A stretch of DNA of 64,000 nucleotides from contig NZ_SLVM01000015.1 in NCBI RefSeq assembly GCF_004339675.1, positions 1 to 64,000 of the forward strand, given 5' to 3'. This DNA comes from Rhodovulum steppense (GTDB taxonomy: Bacteria; Pseudomonadota; Alphaproteobacteria; Rhodobacterales; Rhodobacteraceae). The position numbers were made by a program, and so were the translations under genes. Below the pieces are notes generated by a model. It saw only the letters and a program-made list of their open reading frames with translations, did not search any database and was not told the origin of the DNA. Numbering within the stretch: position 1 is the stretch's first letter; every line of letters begins with the position of its first letter. Shown here piece by piece: positions 1-54,984 of this stretch.

Positions 1-2
1 TG

Positions 3-232
3 CGCGGTGCCCGCGATGCGGGCGAGAGCGTGCGGACCCGGATGATGGTCTCGGCCTACGCGGCGCGGCTGCGCCTGACGCTGGCCAGCGTGCCGACCGA
101 TCGGGGCTCGGAACTGGAGGCCGCGATCGAAGCGCTCGGCCTGATCGCGCTCAAGGGAAAGGTGGTGATCCGCATAGCATTGCTGAACCGCTTCTCGGCC
201 CTCGGAACGTCCGAGATCATTCCTGTGGCCTG
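3..232 (+). pseudogene. ISAs1-family transposase fragment
   Basis: The reading frame is open from the left edge and ends at a TGA near 232. The stretch YAARLRLTLASV followed by RGSELEAAIEALGLIALKGK is the characteristic core of ISAs1-family transposases, just before the catalytic 'TGDALH' motif. Here the motif is absent: after KGKVV the sequence reads IRIALLNRFSALG and stops, so the protein is truncated by a deletion or frameshift. I therefore call it a remnant rather than an active element. It marks the left border of the sulfotransferase island. The 5' part lies outside the window. Confidence 0.6.
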
Positions 233-387
233 AAATCAAAGGGGAAAGGGGAAGTCACGCCTCAGGCGTGAGCTGCGCAACAACGCCGATTCGTGATGTG
301 AATCCTTCACGGCACGAGTTATACAACAACGCCCCCTGTAGCCGAGATAGCCGCGCGAGGCGGCGCGGGTCCCGCGGACTTGCGCCA

Positions 388-1317
388 TCATTCGGCGGGG
401 TAGAGGCGACGGGCCAGCGGTTGCGTGGCCCAAAGCGCAATTCGGTGTTCCCAGCGGTGCCGTGGATCGGTCCATCCCATGCTCGGGCGGATGTTGACCT
501 GCGTCCTGCGTTCGGCCAGAACGCGTTCGTTTGCAGGCGGATACAGATGCTGGCGCTCCCAGGAAAGCCGCGCTCGCACCGGCGTCTCGAACAGCGCTTC
601 GGGCATGGGCTGGCCCATCCAGTCATGCAGCGCCGCCACCTCGGCCTGCGGCCCGGCGGCGAAGTCCTCGTAGCGCAGTACGCGGAACCGCGCGCCCAGA
701 TGCGGCCCCCAGCGGCCCAGCCGGTCTTGCCGCTCCAGCCATTTGCGGCTGTTCGACCAGGTGCCGCGGCGGTTGCCCTTCTTGAGGTTCCAACTGACCG
801 ACACCGCGCGGGGGTCGCGCACGAGATTCAACACCAGCAGATCGTCGTCCATGACCAGCGCGAAAGCCAGCGCCATCTCGGGTGTCTTCGAACTATCGAT
901 CAGGCATTCCGCCCCGGTGGTCGCAGCAATTGCGGCCAGCAGGGCTTTCAGCTGGGTCAGAAAGGCCGTGTGCCGCTCGCGCAACATCTCTCGGGGGCCG
1001 GGCGCATGCCAGTCGCGCAGCCGCTCGGCGTGCCGCTGGAACCGCCGTGCATTCTCGGCAAATGCCACAAGCCGGAGCTCGGGCGCAGCGCCGAAGGCGG
1101 CGGCAATGACAGGGGCGTGGACGGCACAGTCCCGCACCGACCGACCGCAACTGCACGGCGTTGCATCGCGCCAGGCGGTCGGCAGATGGCGCAACTGGCC
1201 CAGATTGAATACCCCAGCCCCTTGCGACAGCAAGAGCGAGAGGAGCGTGCTGCCCGATCGCCCACTGCCCGAAATGGCGAGAATACGTGTCACCCTGACC
1301 TCACAGCCATGTTTCAC
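388..1317 (-). CDS. sulfotransferase family protein (divergent member of the island)
   Basis: A 309-residue predicted PAPS-dependent sulfotransferase. The 5'-phosphosulfate-binding loop is SGSGRSGSTLL at about residues 16-26, and the 3'-phosphate-binding motif is LVRDPRAVSVSW in the second half. A short cysteine-containing segment (TPCSCGRSVRDC) follows the first third, as in many Sulfotransfer_3-type proteins that begin 'ISGSGRSGST'. It would move sulfate from PAPS to a hydroxyl of a sugar or small molecule; the acceptor cannot be read from sequence. It is transcribed away from the six-gene rightward operon starting at 1414, so the 97-bp gap holds both promoters. No signal peptide is visible, so a cytoplasmic location is likely. 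Confidence 0.8.
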   Translation of the reverse strand: MKHGCEVRVTRILAISGSGRSGSTLLSLLLSQGAGVFNLGQLRHLPTAWRDATPCSCGRSVRDCAVHAPVIAAAFGAAPELRLVAFAENARRFQRHAERLRDWHAPGPREMLRERHTAFLTQLKALLAAIAATTGAECLIDSSKTPEMALAFALVMDDDLLVLNLVRDPRAVSVSWNLKKGNRRGTWSNSRKWLERQDRLGRWGPHLGARFRVLRYEDFAAGPQAEVAALHDWMGQPMPEALFETPVRARLSWERQHLYPPANERVLAERRTQVNIRPSMGWTDPRHRWEHRIALWATQPLARRLYPAE

Positions 1318-1413
1318 CCCGGCGCGCCCGTTCGAATGCTGGCGCGGGGGCGGCTCTTCCCTTATGGACGAGACTTAATCGAAACCCATCGCCCGAGAAA
1401 GCGCAAGACGCCG

Positions 1414-2460
1414 ATGATCGCAAGTCCGCCCCATGTCCCCGCGCCGATCTTCCTGATCTGCTCGGAACGCTCGGGCTCGAACCTGACCAGCCTCATCATG
1501 GGGGCGCATGGCAGCGTCTACGCCCATCCACCCTACCATCTGGGCCGCGATCTTCTTCTGAACCTGCGCGACACGCTGGCAGGCGGCATCGACGCGCCTG
1601 CCTGGCCCATCCTGTGCGAACGCGCCGCGGCGCAGGTGGCGCGATATCGCGGCGCGGATGAGGCCGAGCGGCTGCGCCTCCGGCTGGCCGCGCAGGCAAT
1701 CGTCGACCCCGCTGCCATTGCCCGCTTCATCTGGCAAGAGATGCCGCCAGAAGCCCGAGGCAAGCGCGCCTTCGTCAAGGAAAACAACATCCACCGACTG
1801 TTACCTTTCCTTGTCGCGTGCTTTCCGGATGCGCAATATGTCTTTCAGGTTCGCGATCCGCGCGATTTTCTGGCCTCGGCCAAGGCGCGCGGCAAGGGTA
1901 TGATGGGCAACAAGTTTGGCTCGCTGCGCGAGGCGCTGCGGGTCTGGCGCGAGGATCAGGAAAACGGGCTGTGGGCGCTATCGCTACTTGGGTCCGAACG
2001 GGTCACACTGTTGCGCTACGAGGATCTTCTGGCCGCGCCCGAGCCCAGCTTGCGCCGTGTCTGCCGCTTTCTGGGCCTGCCCTTTGAGCCGGGAATGCTG
2101 GAATTTCACAACAGCGAGGCAGCGGCCCGTCTGGCGGTGCCTGGCGGCCCGCGCGAGAATGTGGCACGGCCACTGATGCAGGGTAATTTCGCGAAATACC
2201 GCAAGATCCTTTCCCGGGGTGAAATCCAAGTGACCGAGGCCTATCTGGGCGATCTGATGGACCGGCTGGGTTATGACAGCGACTTTCCCCGCAAAAGTCG
2301 CCGCCGCCCGTGGCGCGCCCTGCGTCCGATGCTGAGTGAACCGATCGAACGGCTTTTCAACAAGCAGTTGCGCGCTCGCTACAAGAACGACAACACGCGG
2401 CTGACCGATCGCCTCGACCGCGAGGCCCGACCGGTGATGCCGGGGCAAGGACAGGGCTAG
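1414..2460 (+). CDS. sulfotransferase family protein
   Basis: Predicted PAPS-dependent sulfotransferase of 348 residues. The 5'-PSB loop is ICSERSGSNLTSLIM (about residues 15-29) and the 3'-PB motif is VFQVRDPRDFLASAKARGK in the middle. The frame stays open far upstream, but that part is antisense to the divergent sulfotransferase and has no protein-like composition, so I chose the ATG at 1414 just before the family start (IASPPHVPAPIFLICSERSG). An in-frame ATG at 1309 would add about 35 poorly conserved residues. It is the first gene of a rightward operon; the adenylation-domain gene follows 6 bp after its stop. A basic C-terminal tail (KSRRRPWRALRP) might contact a membrane or an anionic acceptor; that is inference. 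Confidence 0.8.
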   Translation: MIASPPHVPAPIFLICSERSGSNLTSLIMGAHGSVYAHPPYHLGRDLLLNLRDTLAGGIDAPAWPILCERAAAQVARYRGADEAERLRLRLAAQAIVDPAAIARFIWQEMPPEARGKRAFVKENNIHRLLPFLVACFPDAQYVFQVRDPRDFLASAKARGKGMMGNKFGSLREALRVWREDQENGLWALSLLGSERVTLLRYEDLLAAPEPSLRRVCRFLGLPFEPGMLEFHNSEAAARLAVPGGPRENVARPLMQGNFAKYRKILSRGEIQVTEAYLGDLMDRLGYDSDFPRKSRRRPWRALRPMLSEPIERLFNKQLRARYKNDNTRLTDRLDREARPVMPGQGQG

Positions 2461-2466
2461 GGCGCG

Positions 2467-5199
2467 ATGGACCCCGCCCCGATCAGCCACATTGCCACGC
2501 GTTTGCGCGGGCACCTGTGCCAGAGTTCAACTGTCCCAGCGCTAGAAGTGGCTGGCCATGTCTGGAGCTATGGCCAACTCGGTGCGGCGGTAGCGCAACT
2601 GGCCGCCCGGCTGCCGCAATCCGCGCCGGGGGAGTCCCAACCTGTGACCGCGGTGATGGTGCAGCGCGAGGCATCCGCCTTTATCGGCATCCTGGCTGCC
2701 CATCTTTGCGGCCACGCCTTCGTGCCGCTGAACGTCGCCCACCCGGCGGCACGCAGCGCGCGGGTGCTGGAGTTGTCGGGCGCGGGCCGGGTGATCTGCG
2801 GCGATCTGGCTGCGGACCGGCTCGACTCGATCCTGGCTCACCTGTCCAAAAGCCCGGCCCGGCCCGAGATCATCGCCTGCGGCGAGCGCCCGGTCGATTA
2901 CGCGGACGCCACATCCGACGTCCTGCCCCGCCTGCCAGAGGTGGAACCAGAGGCGCTGGCCTATATCCTTTTCACCTCGGGCAGCACCGGCACACCCAAG
3001 GGGGTGGCGGTCTCGTGGGCCAATCTGGCAGCCTATCTGGACGCCACGGAAACGGTGTTTCCGGCCCGCCCCGGCGACCGCCATTCCCAGACATTCGACC
3101 TGAATTTCGATCTCGCAATTCATGATGTCCTTGTCGCCTTCAGCCGTGGCGCCACGCTGGTCGTGCCGTCCGATCGGGATTTCAACCGGATCGGCGACTG
3201 GTTGCGCGAGGCGGCGATAACCTGCTGGTTCTCGGTTCCCACATTGGGCTTTCAGATGCGGATGCAGGGCGCGCTGGAACCCGGCGCCTTTACGTCGTTG
3301 CGCTCGGTGCTGTTCTGCGGCGAGCCTCTGCCTGCGCATCTGGCCGCGGAATGGCGCGCCGCCGCCCCGAATGCCTCGGTCGAGAACTGGTATGGCCCGA
3401 CCGAGGCCACCATTGCCTGCGCGCGCTTCGTTCTGGGCGAGGCGCCGGTCGGGGGAGAGACGGTGCCGATCGGCCGGGCCTTCCCGGGATCAGGTCTACG
3501 GGTGCTGGACACCACCCGCCGCCCGCTCCCGTCTGGTCATGCGGGAGACCTATACATTACCGGACGGCAACTTGCGCAGGGCTATCTGAACGATCCGGGC
3601 CGCACACGGGCGGCCTTTGTCACGCTTGACGATGGCACGCGCGCCTATCGCACCGGCGACCGGGCGCTGATGCGGGCGGACGGGCATGTGGTGTTCCTGG
3701 GGCGCGAGGATTCGCAGATCAAGCTGCGCGGCCACCGGATCGAACTGGGCGAGGTCGAGGCCGCGCTACGTCGCGCCACCGATGGGGCGCATGTGGCGGT
3801 GCTGCCTTGGCCGGGTGGCGGGGCAGGGACCCGCGCACTGATCGGTGCGGTCGAGGGGCCATACGACACTGACCGCGTGATGGAGCGGCTGGTCGCGGAC
3901 TTGCCCGACTACATGCGCCCCGCCGAGGTGGTCGCGCGCCCGGCCTTTCCACGCAACGCCAGCGGCAAGCTCGACCGCAAGGCGTTGGCCGCCGAAATCG
4001 CGGCAGATCAGGCGCTGCCCGAGGGGGAAGTGCCGGAAGATCCGGTCGCGGCGGCCCTGCTGGATGCGGTGCGCACCGCTGCGCCCGCGATCTCGCCCGC
4101 GCGAGCGATGTCGGCCGACAGCCTGCTGGAAGGGGGCATGGATTCGCTGGCCTTCATCGCCTTCACCATCCTGCTGGAGGATCGTTTCGGGCTGAAGCTG
4201 GATCAGGATGGTGTGGTGCGTCTGGCCGAGATGTCCTTTGCCGACATCGTGCAGCTTTTGCGCCGACACGCCCGCGGGACCGGGCCGGGCGCGTGCCTCG
4301 GCGCCTGGATGCGCACGCTGGTGGCGCGCTTTTCGCTGCTCGTGCGCAAACCCAGGGTCAGGCTGATCCGCACCAATCAGTTCGCCGAGCGGTTCCCGCG
4401 TCTTCTGGACCGTGCCGATGCCCATCTGGTGGTCGCTGTCGGCTCGTCGGGCGTGTTCCGATCCTTTGATCCGCAGGCGTTCGAACGCGCCTGGCCTCGG
4501 CCCGACGGACCGATATTGGCCGTCAATGCCGGGCTACCCGCGGTCTCGCCCAAGGGTCTGGCGCTGGTCGCGCGCTTCATCCGCGATGAATGCCGGGTAC
4601 GGGGCATGCGATTGCGCCTGTGTCTGTGGGAACTTGACCCGCTGCACATCTCGACAGATCCGCCTGCGGGTGACGTGAACCTGGCGCCGAGCGACCTGCG
4701 CCCCGGTACGCGGCGGACCCTGCCGCAGGTGGCGTCGGAATTCGACTGGTCGCTGGAGGCGCGTGGGGCTTGGCTTGCCGATCCCGATCAGCCGGTGGAA
4801 CGCCGCCGCCCGAACTGGGCGCGCGCGAGAGATAGGGGGGTGGCGGACGCCTTCAACGGTGCGCTGACCATCGACCGGGCGCGGCTTGACGACTGGATTC
4901 ATGGCGCGCGGATGCTGGCCGACATCAGTGACAGACTGCTCGTCTATATCCACCCGCCCGATCCCGCGATGATTGCCGAGGCTGCTCCGCCCGAGGGTCC
5001 GGACCGTCTGGCCGAACTGCTCGACGAGATCACGGATGGGCTGGGCATCGAGGTGCTGGACTGGCGCGATTTCGATCTGGGTCCTGCCGATTTCATGGAT
5101 ATCAACCATGTCAATGCGGTGCGCGGGCGAGCCCGGCTGTCGGCCCAACTGGCGATCCGCGCCGCGGCGCGGATCGCCGCCAAAGGGGAAGGGGCATGA
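2467..5199 (+). CDS. DltA-like adenylation - carrier - SGNH-like fusion protein
   Basis: A 910-residue three-part protein. Residues 1-510 are an ANL-superfamily adenylation domain: P-loop LFTSGSTGTPKG (168-179), FDLAIHD substrate-binding segment, LFCGEPLP, NWYGPTEATIACA, YRTGD, and the catalytic-lysine motif NASGKLDRK (Lys501). Residues ~525-600 are a carrier domain with the phosphopantetheine serine in GGMDSL (Ser560). Residues ~640-910 contain VVAVGSSGVFRS (GSS at 659-661) and DINH (878-881), the spacing and motifs of an SGNH/DltD-like acyl-handling fold. LFCGE, the FDL-x-x-x-D motif and YGPTEAT resemble DltA (D-alanine:carrier ligase) more than typical NRPS A domains. No condensation or thioesterase domain and no MBOAT (DltB) partner is present. 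Substrate unknown; amino-acid activation is inferred from the conserved Asp. The next gene overlaps its stop. Confidence 0.8.
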   Translation: MDPAPISHIATRLRGHLCQSSTVPALEVAGHVWSYGQLGAAVAQLAARLPQSAPGESQPVTAVMVQREASAFIGILAAHLCGHAFVPLNVAHPAARSARVLELSGAGRVICGDLAADRLDSILAHLSKSPARPEIIACGERPVDYADATSDVLPRLPEVEPEALAYILFTSGSTGTPKGVAVSWANLAAYLDATETVFPARPGDRHSQTFDLNFDLAIHDVLVAFSRGATLVVPSDRDFNRIGDWLREAAITCWFSVPTLGFQMRMQGALEPGAFTSLRSVLFCGEPLPAHLAAEWRAAAPNASVENWYGPTEATIACARFVLGEAPVGGETVPIGRAFPGSGLRVLDTTRRPLPSGHAGDLYITGRQLAQGYLNDPGRTRAAFVTLDDGTRAYRTGDRALMRADGHVVFLGREDSQIKLRGHRIELGEVEAALRRATDGAHVAVLPWPGGGAGTRALIGAVEGPYDTDRVMERLVADLPDYMRPAEVVARPAFPRNASGKLDRKALAAEIAADQALPEGEVPEDPVAAALLDAVRTAAPAISPARAMSADSLLEGGMDSLAFIAFTILLEDRFGLKLDQDGVVRLAEMSFADIVQLLRRHARGTGPGACLGAWMRTLVARFSLLVRKPRVRLIRTNQFAERFPRLLDRADAHLVVAVGSSGVFRSFDPQAFERAWPRPDGPILAVNAGLPAVSPKGLALVARFIRDECRVRGMRLRLCLWELDPLHISTDPPAGDVNLAPSDLRPGTRRTLPQVASEFDWSLEARGAWLADPDQPVERRRPNWARARDRGVADAFNGALTIDRARLDDWIHGARMLADISDRLLVYIHPPDPAMIAEAAPPEGPDRLAELLDEITDGLGIEVLDWRDFDLGPADFMDINHVNAVRGRARLSAQLAIRAAARIAAKGEGA

Positions 5200-5981
5200 C
5201 CTTGGAACTCTATCGCACCGATCCGTCGCAAGAACTGTCCGATCGGCTGGCCCGGCCGCTGTACCGTGCGCTTTATCCGTTCTACCGCCGCTATCCCTAT
5301 CGCGGGCGGGTCAGTCTGTTCCATATCGAACACCGTGGCGCCTTCTCGCCCGAGGACGGGTTTTTCTTCAACCGTATCCCCAAGGCCGCGAACTCGACCG
5401 TAGCGCGGATGCTGGCCAGCCATTCCGACTACTGTCGGCCCAGTCGCGGGAAGGGCGACATGGGTCGGATGCTGCGCCCGCAGTTGATGAGCCGCGCCCA
5501 TGTCGAGGCACTGGCCTCGGAGGCGGTGTTCAAGTTCACCATCCTGCGCAATCCCTATGCCCGCGTTCTGTCAGCCTATCGTTCCAAGATCGAACTGGCG
5601 AACAATCCGGTAAGGTTGCGCCGCTTCGCCGCGATGCTGGGGGCTACACCCGATACGCGCCCAGATTTCACCACCTTCTGTCGATTTCTCGACCGCGGTG
5701 GGATTTGGCGCGATGCCCATTGGGCGCCGCAGACCGAGCTACTGCTGCTGCCGCTGGAGATGTTCGACCATATCGGCCGGGTCGAGACACTGGAGGACGA
5801 TCTTGCGCTGATCGCACGCCGCATCTGGGGGTTGGATGCGCCGCCGCTGGTCGAGCGGGTGGGCAAGCGCACCGATGCGGGCGCGACCCTTGACACGCAC
5901 TATTCCGACGAGGCGCGCGCGATCGTCGCGCGCCTTTACGCCGAGGATTTCACGCGCCTGGGCTATTCCCCGGACCTGTAA
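5196..5981 (+). CDS. sulfotransferase family 2 (carbohydrate-type) protein
   Basis: A 261-residue protein of the Sulfotransfer_2 type, the family of HNK-1, chondroitin and dermatan sulfotransferases. The 5'-PSB motif is NRIPKAANSTVARML (about residues 59-73), of the IPKxxxST type, and the 3'-PB motif is ILRNPYARVLSAYRSK (about 116-131). This family acts on carbohydrate hydroxyls, so it hints that the island modifies a glycan; that is inference. The ATG overlaps the stop of the adenylation gene (ATGA), which indicates translational coupling. An 84-bp gap with a good Shine-Dalgarno separates it from the next sulfotransferase. Confidence 0.8.
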   Translation: MTLELYRTDPSQELSDRLARPLYRALYPFYRRYPYRGRVSLFHIEHRGAFSPEDGFFFNRIPKAANSTVARMLASHSDYCRPSRGKGDMGRMLRPQLMSRAHVEALASEAVFKFTILRNPYARVLSAYRSKIELANNPVRLRRFAAMLGATPDTRPDFTTFCRFLDRGGIWRDAHWAPQTELLLLPLEMFDHIGRVETLEDDLALIARRIWGLDAPPLVERVGKRTDAGATLDTHYSDEARAIVARLYAEDFTRLGYSPDL

Positions 5982-6065
5982 GGGTAGCGGCAGGTCGGGC
6001 GGCTATGGCCAAGCGGCCCGGCATTCGCTAAAGCAATGCCCGGCAAACCCAGAGGGAGGCGGCCG

Positions 6066-6659
6066 ATGCGGCGCCGCAGGGACAAGGTTTTCGGCATCGG
6101 GTTTCACAAGACCGCAACCTCTTCGCTCAAGCGGGCGCTGAGGCAGTTGGGCTATCGCGTGACCGGCCCGAACCATAACCACGACCAGGACATCGCGTGG
6201 ACCTTTCTGGATCACGCGCGCGCCCTGTCGACCCGTTATGACGCCTTTCAGGACAATCCCTGGCCGCTGGTCTTTCGCGAGATGGACGACATGTGGCCTG
6301 AGGCGAAATTTATCCTGACTGTGCGCGATCCCGAAGGGTGGATCGCCTCGCAGCTGCGCTATTTCGGCGAGGAATCCACGCCCATGCGCGAGTTGATTTA
6401 CGGGCCAGGTCGAGGCAGCCCGTTGGGAAACGAGGCGCATTACATCGCCACGATGCAACGCCATGAGGCTGCGGTGCGCGCCCATTTCGCGGATCGCCCC
6501 GGCAAGCTTCTGGTGCTGGATATCGTGGGCGGCGCAGGCTGGGACCCGCTTTGCGCCTTCCTCGGCGTCCCCGTGCCCCGGCACACCTTTCCGCATGCCA
6601 ACAAGGCTGCCTCGCGTGGGGATGGCTGGCTGGTACGGCTGAAGCGCAAGGTCCGCTGA
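6066..6659 (+). CDS. sulfotransferase-like P-loop protein (Sulfotransfer_4 type)
   Basis: A 197-residue protein with the N-terminal P-loop FGIGFHKTATSSLKRAL (about residues 9-25) and a downstream LTVRDPEGWIASQL segment (about 84-97), typical of the short 'GFHKTGTTS' sulfotransferase-like family. The start at 6066 is preferred over the in-frame ATG at 6036 because AGAGGGAGG lies 7 bp upstream of it. The stop overlaps the ATG of the glycosyltransferase. Whether members of this family really transfer sulfate is less established than for the classical families; the PAPS-binding motifs are nevertheless readable. It ends in a basic tail. Confidence 0.7.
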   Translation: MRRRRDKVFGIGFHKTATSSLKRALRQLGYRVTGPNHNHDQDIAWTFLDHARALSTRYDAFQDNPWPLVFREMDDMWPEAKFILTVRDPEGWIASQLRYFGEESTPMRELIYGPGRGSPLGNEAHYIATMQRHEAAVRAHFADRPGKLLVLDIVGGAGWDPLCAFLGVPVPRHTFPHANKAASRGDGWLVRLKRKVR

Positions 6660-7717
6660 TGCGGATCGTGTTGGTGATGACGGGCGGCGGCGGCGGCGGG
6701 TTGCAGCAGAGCGTTGTGCCCTATGCCGCGGCGCTGACCCGCGCTGGCCATGCCGTTCTGGCAATCGTGCTGGGCAGTTCGCCCTTCGTCGCCGAGTTGG
6801 GCAGCCTGGGTGTGTCGGTCGTCACCACTCGCTGGCCAAGGAAGCCGCGCCCTTTCACCTGGATTCAGGCTCTGGTAATCCGGCGCGCGGCGCAGGCATT
6901 CGGCGCCGAGATCGCGTTGGCCTTCGCCAGCAAGGGCCTTGCCCCCGCGCTGCACGCTCTGGGCGGGCAGATGCCGGTGCTCAGCCGCTGCGGCGCCACG
7001 CGCGAGCGCACGGTTTCGAGGCTTCTGGGGGCGGACGGGCTGATCGCGACCAGCGACGAGATGCGCGCGTTGATCCTGAGGCTGGGCATGCCGACCGAGC
7101 GGGTCCATCTGCTGCCGAACTTTCTGACCGGCGCGGCACGACTCCATTCACGCGCGCCCGGCGACCCGCCCGTAGTGGGCAGTCTCGGCCGGATGGTCCC
7201 GCGCAAGGGTTTCGACGTGTTGCTGCGCGCCTGTGGTGTGCTGGCCCGTCGCGGGCGGCCGGTGCGTCTGCTGCTGGGGGGCAGCGGGCGCGAACGCGAC
7301 GCCTTGGAGAAGCTGGCCAAGGCCGAAGGCGTCGCAGCCGAGTTCCGCGGTTGGATAAGCAATGCCGAAAAAACCGCCTTCTTCGACGAGATCGACATCT
7401 TCGCCTGCCCCTCGCGCCTCGAACCCTTCGGTTTCATCTATCTCGAGGCGATGCAGGCCGGTGTGCCGGTGGTCACGACCGACACGGTCGGCGCCCGGTT
7501 CATCTTTTCCCCCGGAACCGATGGAATGGTGGTGCCGCAGGGCGATGCTGAGGCCATGGCCGACGCAATCGCAGCGCTTCTGGACGATCCCAAAGCGCGT
7601 GCCGAGATGACCGCAGCGGCGCGCGGAACCTTTCTGGGCAGGTTCCACATCGACGCGGCGACTGGTATCCTTGACGATATCCTCCGCGAGGCGCTGGCCC
7701 AGGGGGCACGCGGGTGA
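6659..7717 (+). CDS. glycosyltransferase family 4 (GT-B) protein
   Basis: A 352-residue GT-B glycosyltransferase. The N-terminal Rossmann half begins MRIVLVMTGGGGGG, the glycine-rich loop seen where GT4 enzymes approach the acceptor. The C-terminal half contains VGSLGRMVPRKGFDVLL, LLLGGSGRERDAL, and the EX7E nucleotide-sugar motif in EPFGFIYLEAMQAGVPVV. It would add a sugar from a nucleotide donor to a lipid-linked or soluble acceptor. I chose the ATG at 6659 because it overlaps the preceding TGA (TGATG) and matches the family start; the upstream open frame is the other strand of coding sense of the previous gene. It is the only glycosyltransferase in the island and sits between two sulfotransferases, which suggests its product is later sulfated. 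Confidence 0.85.
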   Translation: MRIVLVMTGGGGGGLQQSVVPYAAALTRAGHAVLAIVLGSSPFVAELGSLGVSVVTTRWPRKPRPFTWIQALVIRRAAQAFGAEIALAFASKGLAPALHALGGQMPVLSRCGATRERTVSRLLGADGLIATSDEMRALILRLGMPTERVHLLPNFLTGAARLHSRAPGDPPVVGSLGRMVPRKGFDVLLRACGVLARRGRPVRLLLGGSGRERDALEKLAKAEGVAAEFRGWISNAEKTAFFDEIDIFACPSRLEPFGFIYLEAMQAGVPVVTTDTVGARFIFSPGTDGMVVPQGDAEAMADAIAALLDDPKARAEMTAAARGTFLGRFHIDAATGILDDILREALAQGARG

Positions 7718-8454
7718 CCATCGTTTCGCATAGCCACGGCTACATCTTTCTCAAGACGCGCAAGACCGCGGGCACCTCGGTCGAGAAATGGCTTTCCGGC
7801 GCGCTGCGCCCCGGTGACTGGATCACCACCGCGCCCGAGAACCTGCCGCTGCCGGTCGGAATCTGGGATACCGCGAACACGGTGACGCGGTTCGGGCGGC
7901 TGGAAAGGGGGCTTAAACGGGTCTGCCGCTACGGCCTCGGCTGGCCGCCGGGCCCCCGGTTTCGCGAGCATATGGAGGCAGGCGCGGTGCGCGCGGCGGT
8001 CGGCGAAGCGATCTGGACCGGTTACTTCAGTTTTGCCATCGAGCGCGACCCCTGGGACCGGATCATCTCGCTCTGGCGCTGGCGCCAGCACGCCAGAGGC
8101 GCTGCGCCGGATTTCGACGGCTTTCTCGACGCGATCGAGGCCGACGGGACTGATCTGGCCACCCGCGGATATTCCAACATGGCGCTCTACACCATAGATG
8201 GGCGTATCGCGGTGGATCGGATCATCCGATACAACGATTTGTGTGGTGGTCTGGCGCGGCTGTGTTCCGACTTGGCGCTTCCGCTGTCGCCCGGGGAACT
8301 ACCGTTTCGAAAGGCCGGGCACCGCGACAGCGCGGACAGCCCGCATGCCCTGACCATTGCGCAGGTCGCGCGCATTGCCCGGATTTGCGCCGAAGAAATC
8401 GACCTTCTGGGATGGGATTACAGGAAGCTTTACGGCGCTCCGCAGCGACCCTGA
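7714..8454 (+). CDS. sulfotransferase family protein
   Basis: A 246-residue predicted sulfotransferase. The N-terminal loop is IFLKTRKTAGTSVEKWL (about residues 11-27), a variant of the 5'-PSB loop in which K-T-A-G-T-S replaces the usual K-S-G-T-T. The 3'-PB segment is SFAIERDPWDRIISLW. The start codon is GTG and overlaps the glycosyltransferase stop (GTGA), so it is translationally coupled. It is the last gene of the six-gene operon. The acceptor is unknown. Confidence 0.75.
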   Translation: MTIVSHSHGYIFLKTRKTAGTSVEKWLSGALRPGDWITTAPENLPLPVGIWDTANTVTRFGRLERGLKRVCRYGLGWPPGPRFREHMEAGAVRAAVGEAIWTGYFSFAIERDPWDRIISLWRWRQHARGAAPDFDGFLDAIEADGTDLATRGYSNMALYTIDGRIAVDRIIRYNDLCGGLARLCSDLALPLSPGELPFRKAGHRDSADSPHALTIAQVARIARICAEEIDLLGWDYRKLYGAPQRP

Positions 8455-8729
8455 CAGAACGGTCGCCGCCTGACCCGAAAAGGCGTTTCCACCCCCTGGC
8501 GGGCAAGCCAGAGGGCGATGGCCAGCAGGATCGGTCTGGTGATTGAGATCGCGCTCATCGCCATGCCGGTCTGAGCCGTGTCCGGCTCGAACAGGGCGAA
8601 GACGAAGGTACCCACGGTGCGCGCCACGACCACCGCCACGGTTGAGGCGATGGCTGCGGTGGCGAAGGTGGGCTGATAGTTCTGCGTGCCGAAATTGTCT
8701 AAATTCGGCTCCCCGGCGATGGTGCCCAT
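8430..8729 (-). CDS. small membrane protein or remnant, unknown function
   Basis: A 99-residue ORF on the opposite strand to the island operon, overlapping the last sulfotransferase by 25 bp at the 3' ends. It has two hydrophobic stretches, FATAAIASTVAVVVARTVG and ISITRPILLAIALWLARQG, and ends in an Arg-rich tail. The same frame remains open and hydrophobic for about 35 codons upstream of the ATG (AFVLVACIGEVVPLSTIVAT) without a better start, so it could be the 3' part of a longer decayed membrane protein. I do not recognise a family. Its composition looks like real membrane-protein coding sequence. Confidence 0.35.
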   Translation of the reverse strand: MGTIAGEPNLDNFGTQNYQPTFATAAIASTVAVVVARTVGTFVFALFEPDTAQTGMAMSAISITRPILLAIALWLARQGVETPFRVRRRPFCQGRCGAP

Positions 8730-9153
8730 GAACGAGGTTGCGACGATGGTCGACAGCGGGACAACCTCGCCGATGCAGGCTACAAGGACAAAAGCGCCAG
8801 AGCCTGGCCGCTGTCGTCGGTGTTGCGCCTACGAGACGGCGTGGCATCTTCGCGGCTTCATCGATATTGCGACAGGCTTGCGGCTCACCTTTTCGAGATT
8901 TGGACCATACTGGTGCGCGGATGCGGCACCTTCGGAAAGACCCGGCATCTTGATGCATGATAACGTCAAAGCGTTCAGCGGCTCTCCCGTGGACCCGGGC
9001 GGGGCCGGGAGTTCCTGGTCGGGCAACCGCACCGATCGAATCCCGGTGCGACCTGCCGAATGCCCTCACCATCATGAAACGCGTTACTTGATAACAATTG
9101 TCGAGGGCAGAATCAGATCGACAGGCCGCATCTAAATTTCTACGCTTCCCTGG
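8730..9153. other. gap without recognisable gene
   Basis: About 420 bp between the small membrane ORF and the WYL regulator. Short open frames exist on both strands but none has protein-like composition or a ribosome site. The part nearest the membrane ORF may be its decayed 5' end. The right part, from about 9060, is more AT-rich (TTGATAACAATTGTC) and probably holds the regulator's promoter. Confidence 0.4.
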
Positions 9154-9168
9154 TGTCAGTTTCTGTCA
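9154..9168 (+). promoter_or_regulatory. TGTCA-N5-TGTCA repeat before the WYL regulator
   Basis: Two direct copies of TGTCA separated by five bases lie 12 bp before the ATG at 9181. The half-site and spacing match the inverted site TGACA-N5-TGTCA found just after the gene at 10187-10201. Position and recurrence suggest operator sites for the WYL regulator itself; this is inference. Confidence 0.35.
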
Positions 9169-9180
9169 TGGGATGTCTCC

Positions 9181-10182
9181 ATGTCTTCCTTTGCCAAGGC
9201 CTCTGACCTCCTTCGCCTCGCCGAGATGGCAGCCGCCCGCCATCTCGGCGTGGGCCTTCAGGACATCGAGGAGGCGTTCGACATCGACCGACGCACCGCG
9301 CAGCGGATGACCAGGGCGCTGGAAACGCTGTTTCCCGGCGTCGAGACCCGCCAGGACGAGGCGCGGCGGAAGTTCTGGAAAATCCGGGGCTCTGACGCCC
9401 GCCTGATGCTGTCGCAGGGGATCCGTGACAGCGAACTGGCGGCGGTCGAACTGGCGATCCGCCGGGCGGAGCGCGACGGCGCGAGCAACGAGGTTAAGGC
9501 TCTGGAATCGCTGCGCGACCGGCTTCTGGCCTGCATGCCCGGCACCCATGCCCGCCGCGCCGAGACCGATGCCGAGGCGGTGCTGGAGGCGCATGGCTTC
9601 GCCTCACGCCCGGGGCCGCGGGTGCGCACCGATCCGCGCATCCTGGCCACCATTGCCGAGGCCCTGAAAGCGCCGAACAGGCTGACAATCACCTATGCCG
9701 GCGAGCGCGACAACGGCCCGCGCGACCGCCTGGTCGAGCCCTATGGCCTGCTGCTCGGCATCCGGCGCTATCTTGTCGCACGGGAACAGGGCGGCGACGC
9801 ACGGTTACGGCATTTCCGGCTGGACCGCATCGGCGCCGCGCGGCTGGAGCCGCAATCCTTCCAGCGTGATCCCGGGTTCGACCTCGATACCCATGCCGCC
9901 TGCGCCTTCGGCTCGTTCCACGCCGAGGCCGAATTCGGCGAGGTCGCCTGGCGCTTCGCCCCCTCGGCCGCCCCTGTCGCCCGCGAATTCGTCTTCCACC
10001 CCTTGCAGGAGATGACCGAGGAATTGGACGGCGCGCTCACCGTTCGCTTCCACGCCTCGGGATGGCTGGAAATGGCCTGGCATCTCTACCAATGGGGCGA
10101 CCGCGTTGAGGTGCTGGCGCCCGAAGGCCTGCGAGCGCTCGTCGCCAGCTACCAGAGGTCGGATTTTCCGGCCTTGCCCTGA
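9181..10182 (+). CDS. WYL-domain transcriptional regulator
   Basis: A 333-residue regulator of the YafY/WYL type. The N-terminal ~75 residues form a winged helix-turn-helix (DIEEAFDIDRRTAQRMTRAL). The middle contains the WYL-like segment RLVEPYGLLLGIRRYLVAREQ with RYL in place of WYL, and the C-terminal part (FHASGWLEMAWHLYQWGD) is the WCX extension, ending in a strand and helix (EVLAPEGLRALVASYQRS). WYL domains sense nucleic-acid ligands and often control defence or DNA-repair genes. Here the next gene is only a remnant of an SbcD/YhaO-like metallophosphoesterase, consistent with an originally linked regulator-nuclease locus. The start follows GGATG. Confidence 0.85.
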   Translation: MSSFAKASDLLRLAEMAAARHLGVGLQDIEEAFDIDRRTAQRMTRALETLFPGVETRQDEARRKFWKIRGSDARLMLSQGIRDSELAAVELAIRRAERDGASNEVKALESLRDRLLACMPGTHARRAETDAEAVLEAHGFASRPGPRVRTDPRILATIAEALKAPNRLTITYAGERDNGPRDRLVEPYGLLLGIRRYLVAREQGGDARLRHFRLDRIGAARLEPQSFQRDPGFDLDTHAACAFGSFHAEAEFGEVAWRFAPSAAPVAREFVFHPLQEMTEELDGALTVRFHASGWLEMAWHLYQWGDRVEVLAPEGLRALVASYQRSDFPALP

Positions 10183-10714: not shown

Positions 10715-11100
10715 GAGAGACAATGGCGAGGGGCATCCAGTTCGCAGAGCAGCCCCGCCACGGAACACCGCCCGGTCTCGGCAGATGCGGTTCGATATGA
10801 TCCGCGAGGCCAACGGCATCTAGCACCGGCTGACCAAGCCTGACCACCCCTGGACAAACGGCCGGGTCTAGCGGATGAACCGCACGATCAAAGAAGCCAC
10901 GGTCAAACGCTTCCGATACGACAGCCACGATCAACTGCGGGCGCACCTCCATGACTGTCTCGCAGCCTAAAACTTCACACGCAGGTTCAAGGCCCTCAGC
11001 GGCCTAATGCCCTACGAATACCTCTGCAAGGTATGACTGCAGAATCCGACAGGACAGTCTCATCGTCAGTCCGATCCACTAGATGACGGGACTGAACACC
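10715..11100 (+). pseudogene. degenerate IS481-family transposase (C-terminal part)
   Basis: Read across frames, the stretch gives GIQFAEQPR, then FDMIREANGI-stop-HRLTKPDHPW, TNGRV-stop-RMNRTIKEATVK, RFRYDSHDQLRAHLHD, and ends MTGLNT. This is the C-terminal half of the rve-type DDE domain of IS481-family transposases (family sequence: EANGIEHRLTKPNHPWTNGQ and VERMNRTIKEATVKRF). At least three in-frame stops and one frameshift are present and the N-terminal half is missing, so it is dead. It separates the WYL locus from the secreted proteins to the right. Confidence 0.7.
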
Positions 11101-11127
11101 CAAGGCTGGATGCACGAGATGAATCCC

Positions 11128-11580
11128 TCAATGGTTTTGTTCAACAGGCCGTGCGTCGAGCGCCCTCCCCCCATGGTGCGGCGCAAGACCCGCCAGCGCC
11201 CCGAGTTGGTCGTCGGTCAGCGCACCATATATGCCGAGGATCGCCTCTGTCATGCCGGTCTCCTCGTGAAGGATGACAACTCCCCCGGGCTGCAATTCCA
11301 ACAGAACGAAGCGCGCGGTGCTGCGCCCGCTGCGCCAGATCACTGCCAGATCGACATGGCCGTTGCCGGTGACGTCGCGCAGCCCGTGCAGGGAGAAGAC
11401 CGGGTCTAGCGGATCCTGCCGGATCTCGAAAACGCTCTCGCCATTCAGTGTGACAGAGACCTCGCCTGCCGTGATCCCGATCCGGTAGCCCGGATCCAGC
11501 GGCTGGCCGAAAGCCGCGCCGTCGCTCAGGCACAGGGCAAGACCGGGGGCGCAAAGGCCGGAAAGAAGCGTGCGGTGCAT
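11128..11580 (-). CDS. secreted protein of unknown function
   Basis: A 150-residue protein with a Sec signal peptide (MHRTLLSGLCAPGLALCL, cleavage probably after AAFG). The mature part contains LHGLRDVTGNGHVDLAVIW, which looks like an FG-GAP/VCBS-type 'D-x-N-G-x-x-D' loop and might bind calcium. The start at 11580 is chosen for the CGGAGGAGG ribosome site 8 bp upstream; it lies 17 bp after the stop of the next secreted protein, so the two form an operon. The C-terminus (PVEQNH) abuts the dead IS481 element and may be element-derived. No family recognised. Confidence 0.55.
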   Translation of the reverse strand: MHRTLLSGLCAPGLALCLSDGAAFGQPLDPGYRIGITAGEVSVTLNGESVFEIRQDPLDPVFSLHGLRDVTGNGHVDLAVIWRSGRSTARFVLLELQPGGVVILHEETGMTEAILGIYGALTDDQLGALAGLAPHHGGRALDARPVEQNH

Positions 11581-13622: not shown

Positions 13623-15134
13623 ATGGCCAATAATTCTCAAAACCTGATCCGGCTTATCGTTGCCGCTCCGGCGATCGGTCTGGCGGTCTATGCCGTGAAC
13701 TACAGCTCCGCGCCGAAACCGGAACCGGCCCCCGCCGCCGAGGCCGTGGCCGAAGTCGCGGCCGAGGAAACGGTCGCCGAAGAGGCCGTGGCCGAGGAAG
13801 ACGCCGCCGAGGAAGTAGCCACCGAAGAGGCCGCTGCCGAAGAAGTTGCTGAAGAGGACGCCGTCGAAGAGGCTGTCGAAGACGTCGCCGAAGACACCGC
13901 CGCCGAAGAGGTCACCGAGGACGCCGCCGAAGAGGCCGCGGCCGAGGAAGAGGTTGCCGAAGAGGCCGCCGAAGACGCCGTGGAAGAGGCTGCCGAGGAA
14001 GAGGCTGCCGAGGAAGCGGTCGCCGAGGATACCGCCGTCGAGGCCCCCGCGGTCGACACGCCGCAAGCCGTCGCCACCGCGCAGACGCTCGCCGAACAGG
14101 CCTCGGCGCTTGCCGCCGAATATGCCGACCTCGCCGCCCGCGCCGCCGCCCTGGCCGGCCAGTCCGCCGCGATCGTCGCGGCCCAGGCCGATGAGGCCGT
14201 GGAAGAGGCCGCCGAGGAAGCGGTGACCGAGGACGTCACCGAAGAGGCCGCCGAGGAAGCGCCCACCGAAGAAGCCGCCGAGGAAGCAGCGGAAGAGGCC
14301 CCCGCGGAAGAAGCGGCGGCGGAAGAGGTGACTGAAGAAGCCGCCGAAGAGGCGCCGGCCGAAGAGGCCGCCGAGGAAGCCCCCGCGGAAGAAGCGACCG
14401 AAGAGGCCGCGGAAGAAGCCCCGGCCGAAGAAGCCGCCGAGGAAGCGACCGAGGAGGCTGCCGCCGAGGAAGCGCCCGCCGAAGAGGTGACCGAGGAAGC
14501 CGCGGAAGAAGCCCCGGCCGAGGAAGCCGCCGAGGAAGCGACCGAGGAAGCCGCCGCGGAAGAAGCGCCCGCCGAAGAGGCGACCGAGGAAGCCACTGAA
14601 GAAGCGCCCGCCGAGGAAGTGACCGAGGAAGTCGCGGAAGAAGCCCCGGCCGAGGACGCCGCGGAAGAAACCACCGAAGAAGCCGCGGAAGAGGCACCCG
14701 CCGAGGAAGCCGCCGAGGAAGCCACGGAAGAAGCCGCCGAGGAAACCCCCGCGGCGATGACCGTAGCCTTCAGCGGCGATCCGGCCGCGGGCGAGGCGGC
14801 GTTCCGTCAGTGCACCACCTGCCACACGGTCACCAATCCCGCGGGCGAGGTGCTGGCGGGCCGTGGCCTTGCGGTCGGCCCCAACCTCTACGGCGTCGCG
14901 GGCCGTCAGGCCGGACAGGTCGAGGACTTCCGCTACTCGCCCTCGATGACCGCGGCCGGTGCTGCGGGCCTCGTCTGGACCGAGGACCAGTTCGTGACCT
15001 ATGCGGCCAACCCGACCGCGTTCCTGCGCGAATATCTCAACGACCCCCGCGCGCGCGGTTCGATGACCCACCAGGTCCGGCGCGAGCAGGAATCCTACGA
15101 CGTCTACGCCTATCTCGCCACGCTGGCGCAATAA
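13623..15134 (+). CDS. membrane-anchored cytochrome c with giant Ala/Glu spacer
   Basis: A 503-residue protein. Residues ~8-27 (LIRLIVAAPAIGLAVYAVNY) form an uncleaved N-terminal anchor. Residues ~30-378 are a low-complexity spacer made almost only of A, E, V, T, D and P in units such as AEEA, TEEA and AEEAPAEE, interrupted by an Ala-rich helix (ALAAEYADLAARAAALAGQS). Residues ~379-503 are a class I cytochrome c of the c550/c552 type: heme motif C397-TTC-H401, GPNLYGVAGRQAG, TEDQFVTYAANPTAFLREYL, and axial Met481 in GSMTHQV. It would shuttle electrons in the periplasm between respiratory complexes, as Paracoccus CycM and Rhodobacter cytochrome c-y do. Those have anchor-spacer-heme layout but far shorter spacers. 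Start chosen at the ATG after AAGGATGGAAG. It converges on cbbO. Confidence 0.8.
   Translation: MANNSQNLIRLIVAAPAIGLAVYAVNYSSAPKPEPAPAAEAVAEVAAEETVAEEAVAEEDAAEEVATEEAAAEEVAEEDAVEEAVEDVAEDTAAEEVTEDAAEEAAAEEEVAEEAAEDAVEEAAEEEAAEEAVAEDTAVEAPAVDTPQAVATAQTLAEQASALAAEYADLAARAAALAGQSAAIVAAQADEAVEEAAEEAVTEDVTEEAAEEAPTEEAAEEAAEEAPAEEAAAEEVTEEAAEEAPAEEAAEEAPAEEATEEAAEEAPAEEAAEEATEEAAAEEAPAEEVTEEAAEEAPAEEAAEEATEEAAAEEAPAEEATEEATEEAPAEEVTEEVAEEAPAEDAAEETTEEAAEEAPAEEAAEEATEEAAEETPAAMTVAFSGDPAAGEAAFRQCTTCHTVTNPAGEVLAGRGLAVGPNLYGVAGRQAGQVEDFRYSPSMTAAGAAGLVWTEDQFVTYAANPTAFLREYLNDPRARGSMTHQVRREQESYDVYAYLATLAQ
13730..14750. repeat. low-complexity (A/E)-coding repeat tract
   Basis: About 1 kb of imperfect short repeats built on GCCGAGGAA/GCGGAAGAA-type codons. 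Two acidic blocks (about 13736-14037 and 14195-14750) flank a 150-bp Ala-rich segment. In the second block a longer unit reading roughly AEEAPAEEAAEEATEE recurs several times, so the tract has probably grown by slippage or unequal exchange. It creates long spurious frames on both strands. Confidence 0.85.
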
Positions 15135-53700: not shown

Positions 53701-54313
53701 TTACATGGCGGCGCTCAAGCGAAAGTCCGTGCTCAGCCTTGCCGCCGCGCGCGAGACGGCCGAGCGCAGCGGGGGGGCGGTCGTCAAGGTCGGCGTGCTG
53801 GTCTCGGGCCTGCGCGAGATGAAAAGCGCCAAGGGCACGCGCTATTTCCGAATGGACCTGTCCGACCCCACCGGCCAGCTTGCGGGCGTCGCCATGTTCC
53901 CGCGCGAAGAGGCCGATCTTGCCGCCGCGCGCAAGGTGTTCGAGACTACCGACAAGGTGGTGGCAACGCTGGAAGGCCGGTTCAGCGAGGGCCAGTTCGA
54001 CCCGACGATCCGCGGCGTTCAGCCGATGGATGCCGCGATTGCCGATGCGGGCGCGGCGGGGCTGGAAATCACCATCGAGACCGCCGAGGCCGCGCAATGC
54101 GTGCGCAGCCTGCTGGACCAGTTGGGCGCAGCGCCGCGGGGCAGGGCGGGCGGGCCGATCCGGCTGCGGGTGCTGAACCTGCAACTGACGGTCGAGGGCG
54201 AGACGCAGCTGCGCGATTGCTGCCTGCGGCTGCGTGGCACCTATCCCGTGACGCCCGCAGTCAAGGGCGCGCTGAAATCGCTGCCGGGCGTGGCGCTGGT
54301 CGAGGAAGTCTGA
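50777..54313 (+). CDS. dnaE: DNA polymerase III subunit alpha
   Basis: A 1178-residue DnaE, the replicative polymerase. It has an N-terminal PHP domain (FIHLRLHTEHSLLEGAVRLK), the polymerase core with GPGRGSGAGSLVAYALTIT and PDFDIDFCMDRREEVIAYVQ carrying catalytic aspartates, YGFNKSHAAAYAVVSYQTAW in the fingers, helix-hairpin-helix segments (RIGKRPLEMLARAGAFD), an OB fold and a C-terminal domain. Length matches family norms. Its TGA overlaps the ATG of a sulfotransferase-like gene. The 187 bp upstream have no gene. Confidence 0.97.
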   Translation: MVAPRFIHLRLHTEHSLLEGAVRLKKLPDLCKAAGMPAVAVTDTNNMFAALEFSVLAAGAGIQPILGCQIDLAHDPVAPGERPRPPAPVVLLAQNEAGYGNLMKLNSCLYLGKAGQLPQVTQEELEAHAAGLICLTGGPDGPLGRFLRAGQRGKAEALAARLAAAFPGRLYVELQRHPGAGGRLTEAEAATERGHVEIAYAMDLPLVATNDVHFPKSEMFEAHDALLCIADGAYVDQAEPRRRLTPQHHFKSPEEMAALFADLPEAIANTVEIARRCAVKAAKRAPILPRFAEDEVEELRRQAKAGLAARLAVIPHAAPVEEYEKRLEFELGIIEGMGFPGYFLIVADFIKWAKDHGIPVGPGRGSGAGSLVAYALTITDLDPLRYSLLFERFLNPERVSMPDFDIDFCMDRREEVIAYVQQRYGREKVAQIITFGALLSKAAVRDVGRVLQMPYGQVDKLSKLIPVEGVKPVSIEKALADEPRLREAARAEEVVDRLLTYGQQVEGLLRNASTHAAGVVIGDRPLDELVPLYQDPRSDMPATQFNMKWVEAAGLVKFDFLGLKTLTVIQNAIDLIRAGGRALHEGADGTPLYQPKPGAENDIGHIPLDDPKTYELYASARTVAVFQVESSGMMDALRRMKPTCIEDIVALVALYRPGPMENIPAYCEVKHGLRPLESIHPSIDHILAETQGIIVYQEQVMQIAQVMAGYSLGGADLLRRAMGKKIAEEMAKERPKFVEGAVANGVPKAKAGEVFDLLEKFANYGFNKSHAAAYAVVSYQTAWLKANHPVEFMAGVMNCDIHLTDKLGIYAEEVRRGLGIGIVPPCVNRSQAGFSVSGGRLVYALGALKNVGVEAMRLIVEARSDRPFATIFDFARRVDLKRIGKRPLEMLARAGAFDQLDPNRRRVFDSLDALSAWSAAIHDQRGSAQVSLFGEAGDDLPEPRLAPVADWLPAERLAEEHKAVGFYLSGHPLDDYMAALKRKSVLSLAAARETAERSGGAVVKVGVLVSGLREMKSAKGTRYFRMDLSDPTGQLAGVAMFPREEADLAAARKVFETTDKVVATLEGRFSEGQFDPTIRGVQPMDAAIADAGAAGLEITIETAEAAQCVRSLLDQLGAAPRGRAGGPIRLRVLNLQLTVEGETQLRDCCLRLRGTYPVTPAVKGALKSLPGVALVEEV

Positions 54314-54984
54314 TGGGCACGCCGCTGCCCCGCGTCGTTCTGGTGGGCTTCAACAAATGCGGTACGCGCAGTCTGGCCCTTCTGTTCCAGCGGGCTGGCC
54401 ATCGTGCGCTGCACCATAAGCACCGCCGCCCTCTCCGCCGCTCGCAAACAGCCGCGCGGATCATCCGCGACAATCTGCGCGCGGGGCGCAAGGCGCTGGC
54501 AGGGATTGAGGACTATACCTTCTACTGCGACCTGATCCACGTCACGCCGACCGAGTATTTCGAGGGCAACACCGCCTTCACCTGGATCCTGCGCGACTAT
54601 CCCGGCACGATCCTTCTGTTGAACCTGCGCGACCGCGAGGCCTGGATCACCTCGCGGCTGCGCCATGGTCATGGCGAGTTCGCGCGGCGGTCGATGGCGG
54701 CGCTGGGGCTGGTCGACGAGGCGGCGCTGGTGGCGCGCTGGCGGGCGGATTGGGACGCGCAGCTGGACGCGGTGCGTGGCCACATGGCCGACAGGCCCGG
54801 TCAACTGGTCGAATTCGATCTCGACCGCGATCCGGTGGAGCGGCTGGTCGCGGCGCTGCCCGACTACGGGCTTGATCCGGCCGACTGGGGCGATACCGGC
54901 CGGTCGCGCGGTCGGCATCTGCCGACACCGCTGGTCTGGGTGAAACGGGCCTGGGCGCATGCCCGCCCGCGCGCCTCGCGCTGA
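54313..54984 (+). CDS. sulfotransferase-like P-loop protein overlapping dnaE
   Basis: A 223-residue protein with the P-loop [20 protein letters not shown] (about residues 8-27) and the 3'-PB-like [20 protein letters not shown]. The pattern 'GFNKCGT' followed by 'L-x-L-R-D-x-x-x-W-x-x-S' is that of short sulfotransferase-like proteins. Its ATG overlaps the dnaE stop (TGATG), so it is translationally coupled to the replicative polymerase. A basic C-terminal tail follows ([13 protein letters not shown]). It converges on the slyX-like gene 5 bp later. Acceptor unknown, and catalytic activity is inferred. Confidence 0.68.

Follow-up and report, generated by a model that had tools for sequence, protein, structure and literature searches.

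A conserved pair of a PAPS sulfotransferase and an adenylation-carrier-SGNH fusion protein in Rhodovulum steppense and other bacteria, a possible module for joint aminoacylation and sulfation

The first 64,000 nucleotides of contig NZ_SLVM01000015.1 of Rhodovulum steppense (RefSeq assembly GCF_004339675.1, genome of 3.66 Mb), referred to here as the window, begin at the first base of the contig and carry seven neighbouring genes at positions 388-8454. These encode five sulfotransferases (named ST1-ST5), one GT4 glycosyltransferase and one fusion protein composed of an adenylation, a carrier and an SGNH-type domain (named FUS). The same set had been listed in the initial annotation, and all of it was recovered using reading frames and family profiles. 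ST1 (388-1317), a protein of the Sulfotransfer_3 type with the GSGRSGST motif (PF13469, E-value 2.4e-12), is encoded on the reverse strand, and the other six genes are on the forward strand. ST2 (about 1414-2460; PF13469, 1.2e-26) is of the ERSGSN type. It is followed by the gene of the 910-aa FUS (2467-5199; TIGR01733, 342 bits vs the cut-off of 317), within which the adenylation domain (2524-4008), the carrier domain (4054-4236) and the SGNH-type transferase/hydrolase domain (4384-5154) were distinguished. Further downstream are ST3 (5196-5981; Sulfotransfer_2 type, PF03567, 2.8e-21), ST4 (6036-6659; Sulfotransfer_4 type, PF17784, 4.3e-35), GT4 (6659-7717; PF00534, 7.4e-36) and ST5 (7714-8454; Sulfotransfer_2-like, PF03567 at 0.0019, below the cut-off).

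Six of the genes had also been described as tightly coupled, which is true of four junctions (a 6-bp gap between ST2 and FUS, an ATGA overlap of FUS and ST3, a 1-base overlap of ST4 and GT4, and a GTGA overlap of GT4 and ST5) and slightly too strong for the fifth, as ST3 and ST4 are separated by 54 bp, or by 84 bp if ST4 starts at its second ATG. The GC content of the region is not distinct. A scan of positions 1-9200 found no promoters, and 10 terminator-like sites were observed there vs 6.1 (SD 2.3) in shuffled sequences.

The seven genes had been taken for one unit, and this did not hold. ST3, ST4 and GT4 were without a tblastn match (E ≤ 1e-3) in 41 relative loci with flanks of up to 10 kb, in a type of search that can miss distant relatives, and the conserved core is FUS with ST1, usually joined by ST2. 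The relatives were collected in a non-exhaustive scan for FUS of 84,980 species genomes with six short peptide patterns, which yielded the 41 loci. Four of them (L045-L048), where the match covered solely the adenylation domain and part of the carrier region, were excluded from the count of FUS loci, and L039, which repeats L025 on the same contig, was counted with it once. The remaining 36 loci and the window make 37, of which L042 and L020 are truncated at contig ends and L044 contains a gap of N. ST1 is present within 1.4 kb of FUS in 32 of the 37, either next to it or with ST2 or one other gene in between. In L023 an end of ST1 is found at the contig edge (cut), in L029 an ST1-like fragment is located about 9.8 kb from FUS, and in L044 the distance is 10.7 kb; ST1 is therefore near FUS in all 35 loci that could be judged. 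ST2 adjoins FUS in 22 of the 37 loci. As a control, the four loci with only the adenylation/carrier part gave neither an ST1 nor an ST2 match. ST2 had also been tried as the invariant partner of FUS and was rejected, since that partner is ST1.

Two of these loci deserve a separate comment. In L010, a remnant of ST2 was found at 9584-9901, with matches to residues 11-49 and 281-350 placed side by side, i.e., with an apparent internal deletion, and it appears that in this locus ST2 is being lost while ST1 and FUS stay. L025 and L039 are the same ST1-FUS-ST2 stretch near both ends of one 110-kb contig (NVUP01000014.1), which would fit a circular plasmid whose ends overlap, or an assembly repeat.

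The association was also analyzed in genome samples of increasing taxonomic breadth. Within the genus, FUS was found in 3 of 16 genomes, including those of L011 (Rhodovulum tesquicola) and L008. In the sample of the family, with 394 genomes from 393 genera, FUS was detected at E ≤ 1e-60 in 13 genomes and covered over its whole length in seven (in one of them as two pieces), and exactly these seven scored above 280 bits with ST1, the next ST1 scores being 118 and 115 bits. Two of the 385 genomes of the class sample exceeded 400 bits with ST1 and the same two carried the C-terminal half of FUS, the other ST1 matches reaching 108 and 93 bits. The phylum sample of 398 genomes, which was searched with ST1 only, gave two strong matches (G000 and G250), both in known holders of FUS, and three matches at 122-135 bits. 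Among 72,556 plasmid records, ST1 was detected at E ≤ 1e-15 in two, which are the two best FUS records; in both (L063 and L064) ST1 and FUS are adjacent and no ST2 adjoins them. It should be stressed that several of the sampled genomes are sources of the 37 loci, so that these co-occurrence tests overlap. Overall, the core was seen in Alphaproteobacteria, in gammaproteobacterial and burkholderial metagenome-assembled genomes (MAGs) and on Roseobacter plasmids. The expectation that the fusion protein would accompany sulfotransferases in other genomes was thus borne out for ST1, far above chance, and ST1, ST2 and FUS were found linked in the relatives, not scattered.

The core genes are also joined physically. 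ST1 and ST2 form one protein in three loci (L016, L022, and L040), and in six (L023, L027, L028, L030, L031, and L035) the N-terminus of FUS is joined to ST2, each type of fusion making up one supported group in the FUS tree. Moreover, pairwise distances of FUS correlate with those of ST1 (r = 0.93, n = 29) and of ST2 (r = 0.90, n = 20), and none of 1000 permutations gave values as high, a correlation that partly comes from the shared ancestry of the genomes. Taken together, it is well supported that FUS and ST1 function together.

Judging from its motifs, ST1 is a divergent PAPS (3'-phosphoadenosine 5'-phosphosulfate) sulfotransferase, with sulfate transfer as its predicted activity. Among 31 aligned sequences, the window included, 33 columns are invariant, GxGRxGxT and RDPRA...S being among these, and the AlphaFold2 model (mean pLDDT, the predicted local distance difference test score, of 92) found sulfotransferases as its best Foldseek matches. 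The corresponding motifs of ST2 are invariant or nearly so in 22 sequences, and both proteins are above the PF13469 cut-off. We take these motifs to be the PAPS-binding ones, and they are kept in the relatives of ST1 and ST2, in line with the annotated enzyme class. Three cysteines of ST1 (C55, C57, and C64, CxCG...C) are invariant in 31/31 aligned proteins as well. In searches against solved structures, the ST1 and ST2 profiles matched the sulfotransferases of CurM and of olefin synthase best (CurM at 4.3e-11 and 2.6e-25, respectively), followed by tyrosylprotein sulfotransferases; this nearness says little about the acceptor, because just 13 PDB sequences were matched per search and the top ones were the same for both proteins. 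Likewise, NCBIfam gave for ST2 a weak match to NoeE, a nodulation sulfotransferase (21.5 bits, cut-off of 500), which does not decide the acceptor. An adenylylsulfate kinase gene (PF01583) is present in the genome, on another contig than the module, so PAPS can be made.

The adenylation domain of FUS did not reach the cut-offs of the more specific models, i.e., the DltA equivalog TIGR01734 (248 bits, cut-off of 560) and PRK04813 (242 bits, cut-off of 476), and no condensation domain was detected in FUS by the Pfam scan at E ≤ 0.01. Its putative substrate pocket consists of D215, L216, H219, T259, L282, C284, W308, I316, A317, and K501. D215, H219, and W308 are conserved in 34/34 FUS sequences, L216 in 28/34 and C284 in 30/34. 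Of these residues, D215, L216, and C284 align with D247, L248, and C316 of AlmE (chain numbers minus 20), and the FDLSVHD segment of most FUS relatives also occurs in AlmE. The remaining pocket positions are putative and were placed by eye on the GrsA numbering. The solved structures nearest to the pocket segment are 6akd, 8k4r, and 4oxi; 8xjz, which gave the top score for a single adenylation domain (495 bits), is absent among the pocket-segment matches at E ≤ 1e-8. According to passages of PMC11253843, 6AKD is IdnL7 (glycine, L-alanine, L-serine) and 4OXI is AlmE (glycine), in which L248 and C316 are given as residues behind the glycine choice. The amino acid activated by FUS is thus probably glycine, as predicted from the pocket.

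The carrier domain of the window copy matches PF00550 weakly (0.0047), and all 34 aligned members, including this one, match at E ≤ 0.1 (best 3.9e-8); Ser560 (codon 4144-4146), the predicted phosphopantetheine site, is conserved in 34/34. The C-terminal part is without a Pfam match, and its assignment to the SGNH type is based on motifs and a modelled fold. The motifs are GSSG (659-662), NxG (687-689), HP (829-830), and (D/N)xxH881, with S660, S661, P830, and H881 conserved in 34/34 sequences and N687 and H829 in 33/34. In the model of this part (pLDDT 88), the top Foldseek match was DltD (7dxm, E-value 2.6e-3, template modelling score of about 0.3), and the others include PatB and GDSL hydrolases. 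FUS is best read as a single-chain, Dlt/Alm-like aminoacyl transferase, and it is transfer rather than hydrolysis that we infer for its last domain.

The neighbourhoods of the core were compared as well. In a group of 11 loci, nine of them without ST2 (68 of 74 neighbours), the 25 families listed of 49 included GT2 (5), ABC transporter (4), UDP-galactopyranose mutase (2), ABC-2 (2), and RmlD (2), and several other neighbours were ordinary metabolic genes. Combinations of UDP-galactopyranose mutase, glycosyltransferase, ABC-2 exporter and rhamnose genes were found in L024, L025, L026, and L044 and on the plasmids L063 and L064; the fused ST1-ST2 gene of L022 and L040 has an ABC exporter gene just upstream. 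The two plasmids are from Phaeobacter and Leisingera and belong to the same replicon clusters (rep_cluster_252, 735), and their ST1 and FUS genes are placed amid exopolysaccharide or rhamnose genes.

Tentatively, and as a reading that may quite possibly be right, we propose that the core is a transferable module that places both sulfate and a small amino acid (glycine being the most likely) on the same cytoplasmic acceptor. The adenylation domain of FUS would activate the amino acid and load it on the carrier serine, from which the SGNH domain would pass the aminoacyl group to an amine or hydroxyl on the acceptor; one chain would then do the work that is divided among DltA/DltC/DltD or AlmE/AlmF/AlmG. 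This acceptor would also be sulfated from PAPS by ST1 and, in the loci that have it, by ST2, resulting in a decoration with both an amine and a sulfate. As FUS carries its own carrier, it should be cytoplasmic. In part of the Roseobacter branch the acceptor would most likely be an exported polysaccharide or its precursor, and in the window GT4 and ST3-ST5 suggest a more heavily decorated glycan. The initial annotation gave a multiply sulfated, possibly aminoacylated glycan or small molecule as the product, and a sulfated, aminoacylated glycan is a candidate product; some loci adjoin glycan genes and many do not.

A number of observations weigh against this proposal. In the larger group, consisting of 22 loci (17 with ST2; 129 of 170 neighbours selected after leaving out genes shorter than 120 aa, those of low coding score and those overlapping the core), no glycan family is among the 25 commonest of 152 families. 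The loci without ST2 are not all beside glycan genes either, since L009, L010, L012, and L013 belong to this group of 22 and L033 has ordinary metabolic neighbours. No DltB-like family was found among the seven genes or the neighbour families listed, and DltD, as stated in a passage of PMC3783018, acts outside the membrane, and FUS is expected in the cytoplasm. The likeness to DltD is weak, as no Foldseek match of the SGNH model was at 0.001 or better, and the acid preceding H881 is D in 20/34 sequences, N in 13/34 and T in 1/34. As regards the substrate, L216 and C284 are kept in only 28 and 30 of the 34 sequences, W308 stands where AlmE has Leu, and L198 and C268 of DltA are tied to D-alanine binding in the part of PMC11253843 dealing with them; since DltA shares the Leu and Cys, glycine is a prediction and D-alanine is compatible with the pocket. 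In terms of distribution, L019 and L021, which begin at a contig end, are without ST1 in the 10 kb downstream and were not judgeable; 15/37 loci gave no ST2, among them two that are truncated upstream and L010 with its remnant; and in G098 ST1 was matched on a contig other than that of FUS. Finally, FUS-linked copies served to build the ST1 profile, several of them from the sampled genomes, so that the absence of ST1 without FUS applies to this ST1 group only; the opposite direction, from FUS to ST1, is free of this bias.

The neighbourhoods without glycan families, which many of the triads have, would suit another explanation, namely that sulfonation takes place on the carrier. ST1 and/or ST2 would then act on the aminoacyl group bound to FUS (N-sulfonation if it is glycine, O-sulfation if it is a serine-like residue), and the SGNH domain would release or cyclise the resulting sulfonated small molecule, in the manner of sulfazecin or curacin termination. 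The attachment of ST2 to the FUS N-terminus in six loci is what would be expected of an enzyme acting there, and the best matches of the ST1 and ST2 profiles among solved structures (CurM and olefin synthase) point the same way. Precedents are known: passages of PMC11298585 describe SulN as N-sulfonating a tripeptide bound to a peptidyl carrier protein, and the CurM sulfotransferase with its thioesterase is recounted in a section of PMC6274090. On the other hand, the predicted glycine has no hydroxyl to sulfate, the nearness to CurM discriminates poorly with 13 PDB sequences per search and the same top matches, and several ST1 and FUS pairs without ST2 adjoin glycan genes (L024, L044, L063, and L064). 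We regard carrier sulfonation as unlikely, albeit the most serious competitor. Decarboxylative termination of the CurM type, also tried as the leading explanation, was ranked lower in view of the glycine predicted from the pocket and of the poor discrimination of the PDB search.

A number of the loci are located in glycan clusters and on plasmids, and in several there are extra, varied sulfotransferase-like genes nearby, which would be consistent with FUS and the sulfotransferases serving one pathway on different molecules or at different steps, and co-travelling in variable surface-polysaccharide cassettes without direct coupling. Such loose association is distinctly improbable, since it is one specific group, ST1, that accompanies FUS in every judgeable locus, across Alphaproteobacteria and the gammaproteobacterial and burkholderial MAGs, and since the distances are correlated and the genes are fused as ST1-ST2 and ST2-FUS. 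A bolder variant, in which the amine of carrier-bound glycine is sulfonated by ST1 and ST2 and a glycan or lipid then receives the N-sulfoglycyl group from the SGNH domain, would amount to a previously unknown sulfamate decoration; we consider it something of a long shot.

An ordinary acquired set of sulfotransferases with no special relation to FUS, as could be suggested by the insertion sequence (IS) remnants on both sides and by ST3, ST4 and GT4 being unmatched in the 41 relative loci, is very improbable, being contradicted for ST1 and ST2 by the co-occurrence, fusion and distance results, and may hold for ST3 and ST4. The remnants were earlier taken as a sign of an acquired island, which is only partly supported. 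The left one, related to ISAs1-family transposases, is present at 1-168 (82% DNA identity to annotated ISAs1 transposase genes), at a site that is also the contig end. The right one, of the IS481 family, is present at about 10732-11129 (77-80% DNA identity to annotated IS481 transposases), beyond the gene of a WYL-domain regulator and not at the cluster edge. With FUS in three of the 16 genus genomes and both relatives grouping with the window in the FUS tree, FUS may have long been present in the genus and been lost many times.

The WYL-domain regulator (9181-10182, forward strand; PF13280/PF25583) is probably not part of the module. A defence system was considered and rejected, as PADLOC had no match for any of the seven genes, the regulator being its only match. 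As to the accessory genes, the sole gene to recur across loci beyond ST1, ST2 and FUS is an ST5-like one; it adjoins FUS in L018, L027, L028, L030, and L035 and is 8.8 kb off in L044, and the relative beside FUS in L027 matches PF03567 above the cut-off (3.1e-9). Further sulfotransferase-like genes, some Pfam-supported and some recognized by motif only, are found near the core in several loci, and Sulfotransfer_2 appears in three neighbours of the 22-locus group. The best NCBIfam match of GT4 is EpsE (98 bits, below the cut-off of 400), and on plasmid L063 a single weak match to GT4 was found (30% over 175 aa). Elsewhere in the window, far from the module, a sulfotransferase-like protein is encoded at 54313-54984 (forward strand; PF17784, 6e-6). 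Another forward-strand gene (13623-15134) encodes a protein of 503 aa in which a cytochrome c-like segment with CxxCH comes after a long tract of Ala/Glu/Val repeats; it has no Pfam match at 0.001.

FUS and its module share features with several known systems. With Dlt (DltA, DltB, DltC, and DltD), which D-alanylates teichoic acids, it shares the Leu and Cys pocket positions and a carrier, and its putative SGNH part matches DltD best, if weakly, in fold; in contrast, FUS is one polypeptide, there is no DltB among the seven genes, the hosts are Gram-negative and dedicated sulfotransferases are present. With AlmE/AlmF/AlmG, responsible for lipid A glycylation in Vibrio cholerae, it shares the D, L, and C of the AlmE pocket and, in most relatives, FDLSVHD. 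AlmG, as a passage of PMC3783018 has it, is an acyltransferase of the LPLAT type, whereas the FUS module has an SGNH domain instead, plus the sulfotransferases, and the Pfam scan found no acyltransferase family among the seven genes. The sulfotransferase-thioesterase modules of CurM and olefin synthase are alike in combining a sulfotransferase with a carrier-containing protein and a hydrolase-type domain, but they are polyketide modules with a thioesterase, while here a sulfotransferase, adenylation, carrier and SGNH domain go with amino acid activation, and no thioesterase or polyketide domain was found by the Pfam scan. Sulfazecin biosynthesis (SulI, SulM, and SulN), following passages of PMC11298585, similarly pairs an amino acid carrier protein with a sulfotransferase that acts in trans; it relies on a multimodular nonribosomal peptide synthetase with a Cys thioesterase, neither of which the seven genes include. 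Sulfated capsule clusters from marine bacteria, such as Vibrio sp. KMM 8419, have their sulfotransferases near glycosyltransferase, rhamnose and ABC-transporter genes, as the relevant part of PMC11641403 relates, yet 'AMP-binding' does not occur in the main text of that paper and the cluster of the window has one GT4 only.

In the open-licence literature, no description of a combined sulfotransferase and adenylation-carrier-SGNH protein was found, and as far as that search reaches, the combination is undescribed; it is real and conserved, and the enzyme families on which it draws are known ones. Little is known about the acceptors of bacterial polysaccharide sulfotransferases, as noted in a passage of PMC11641403. 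Decorations with amino acids and sulfate alter the charge of surface molecules and hence their interactions, and a compact set of two or three proteins joining aminoacyl transfer with sulfation is directly testable, the fused forms making expression easier. If both groups are indeed placed on one acceptor, the module would represent a new genetically encoded route to zwitterionic decorations.

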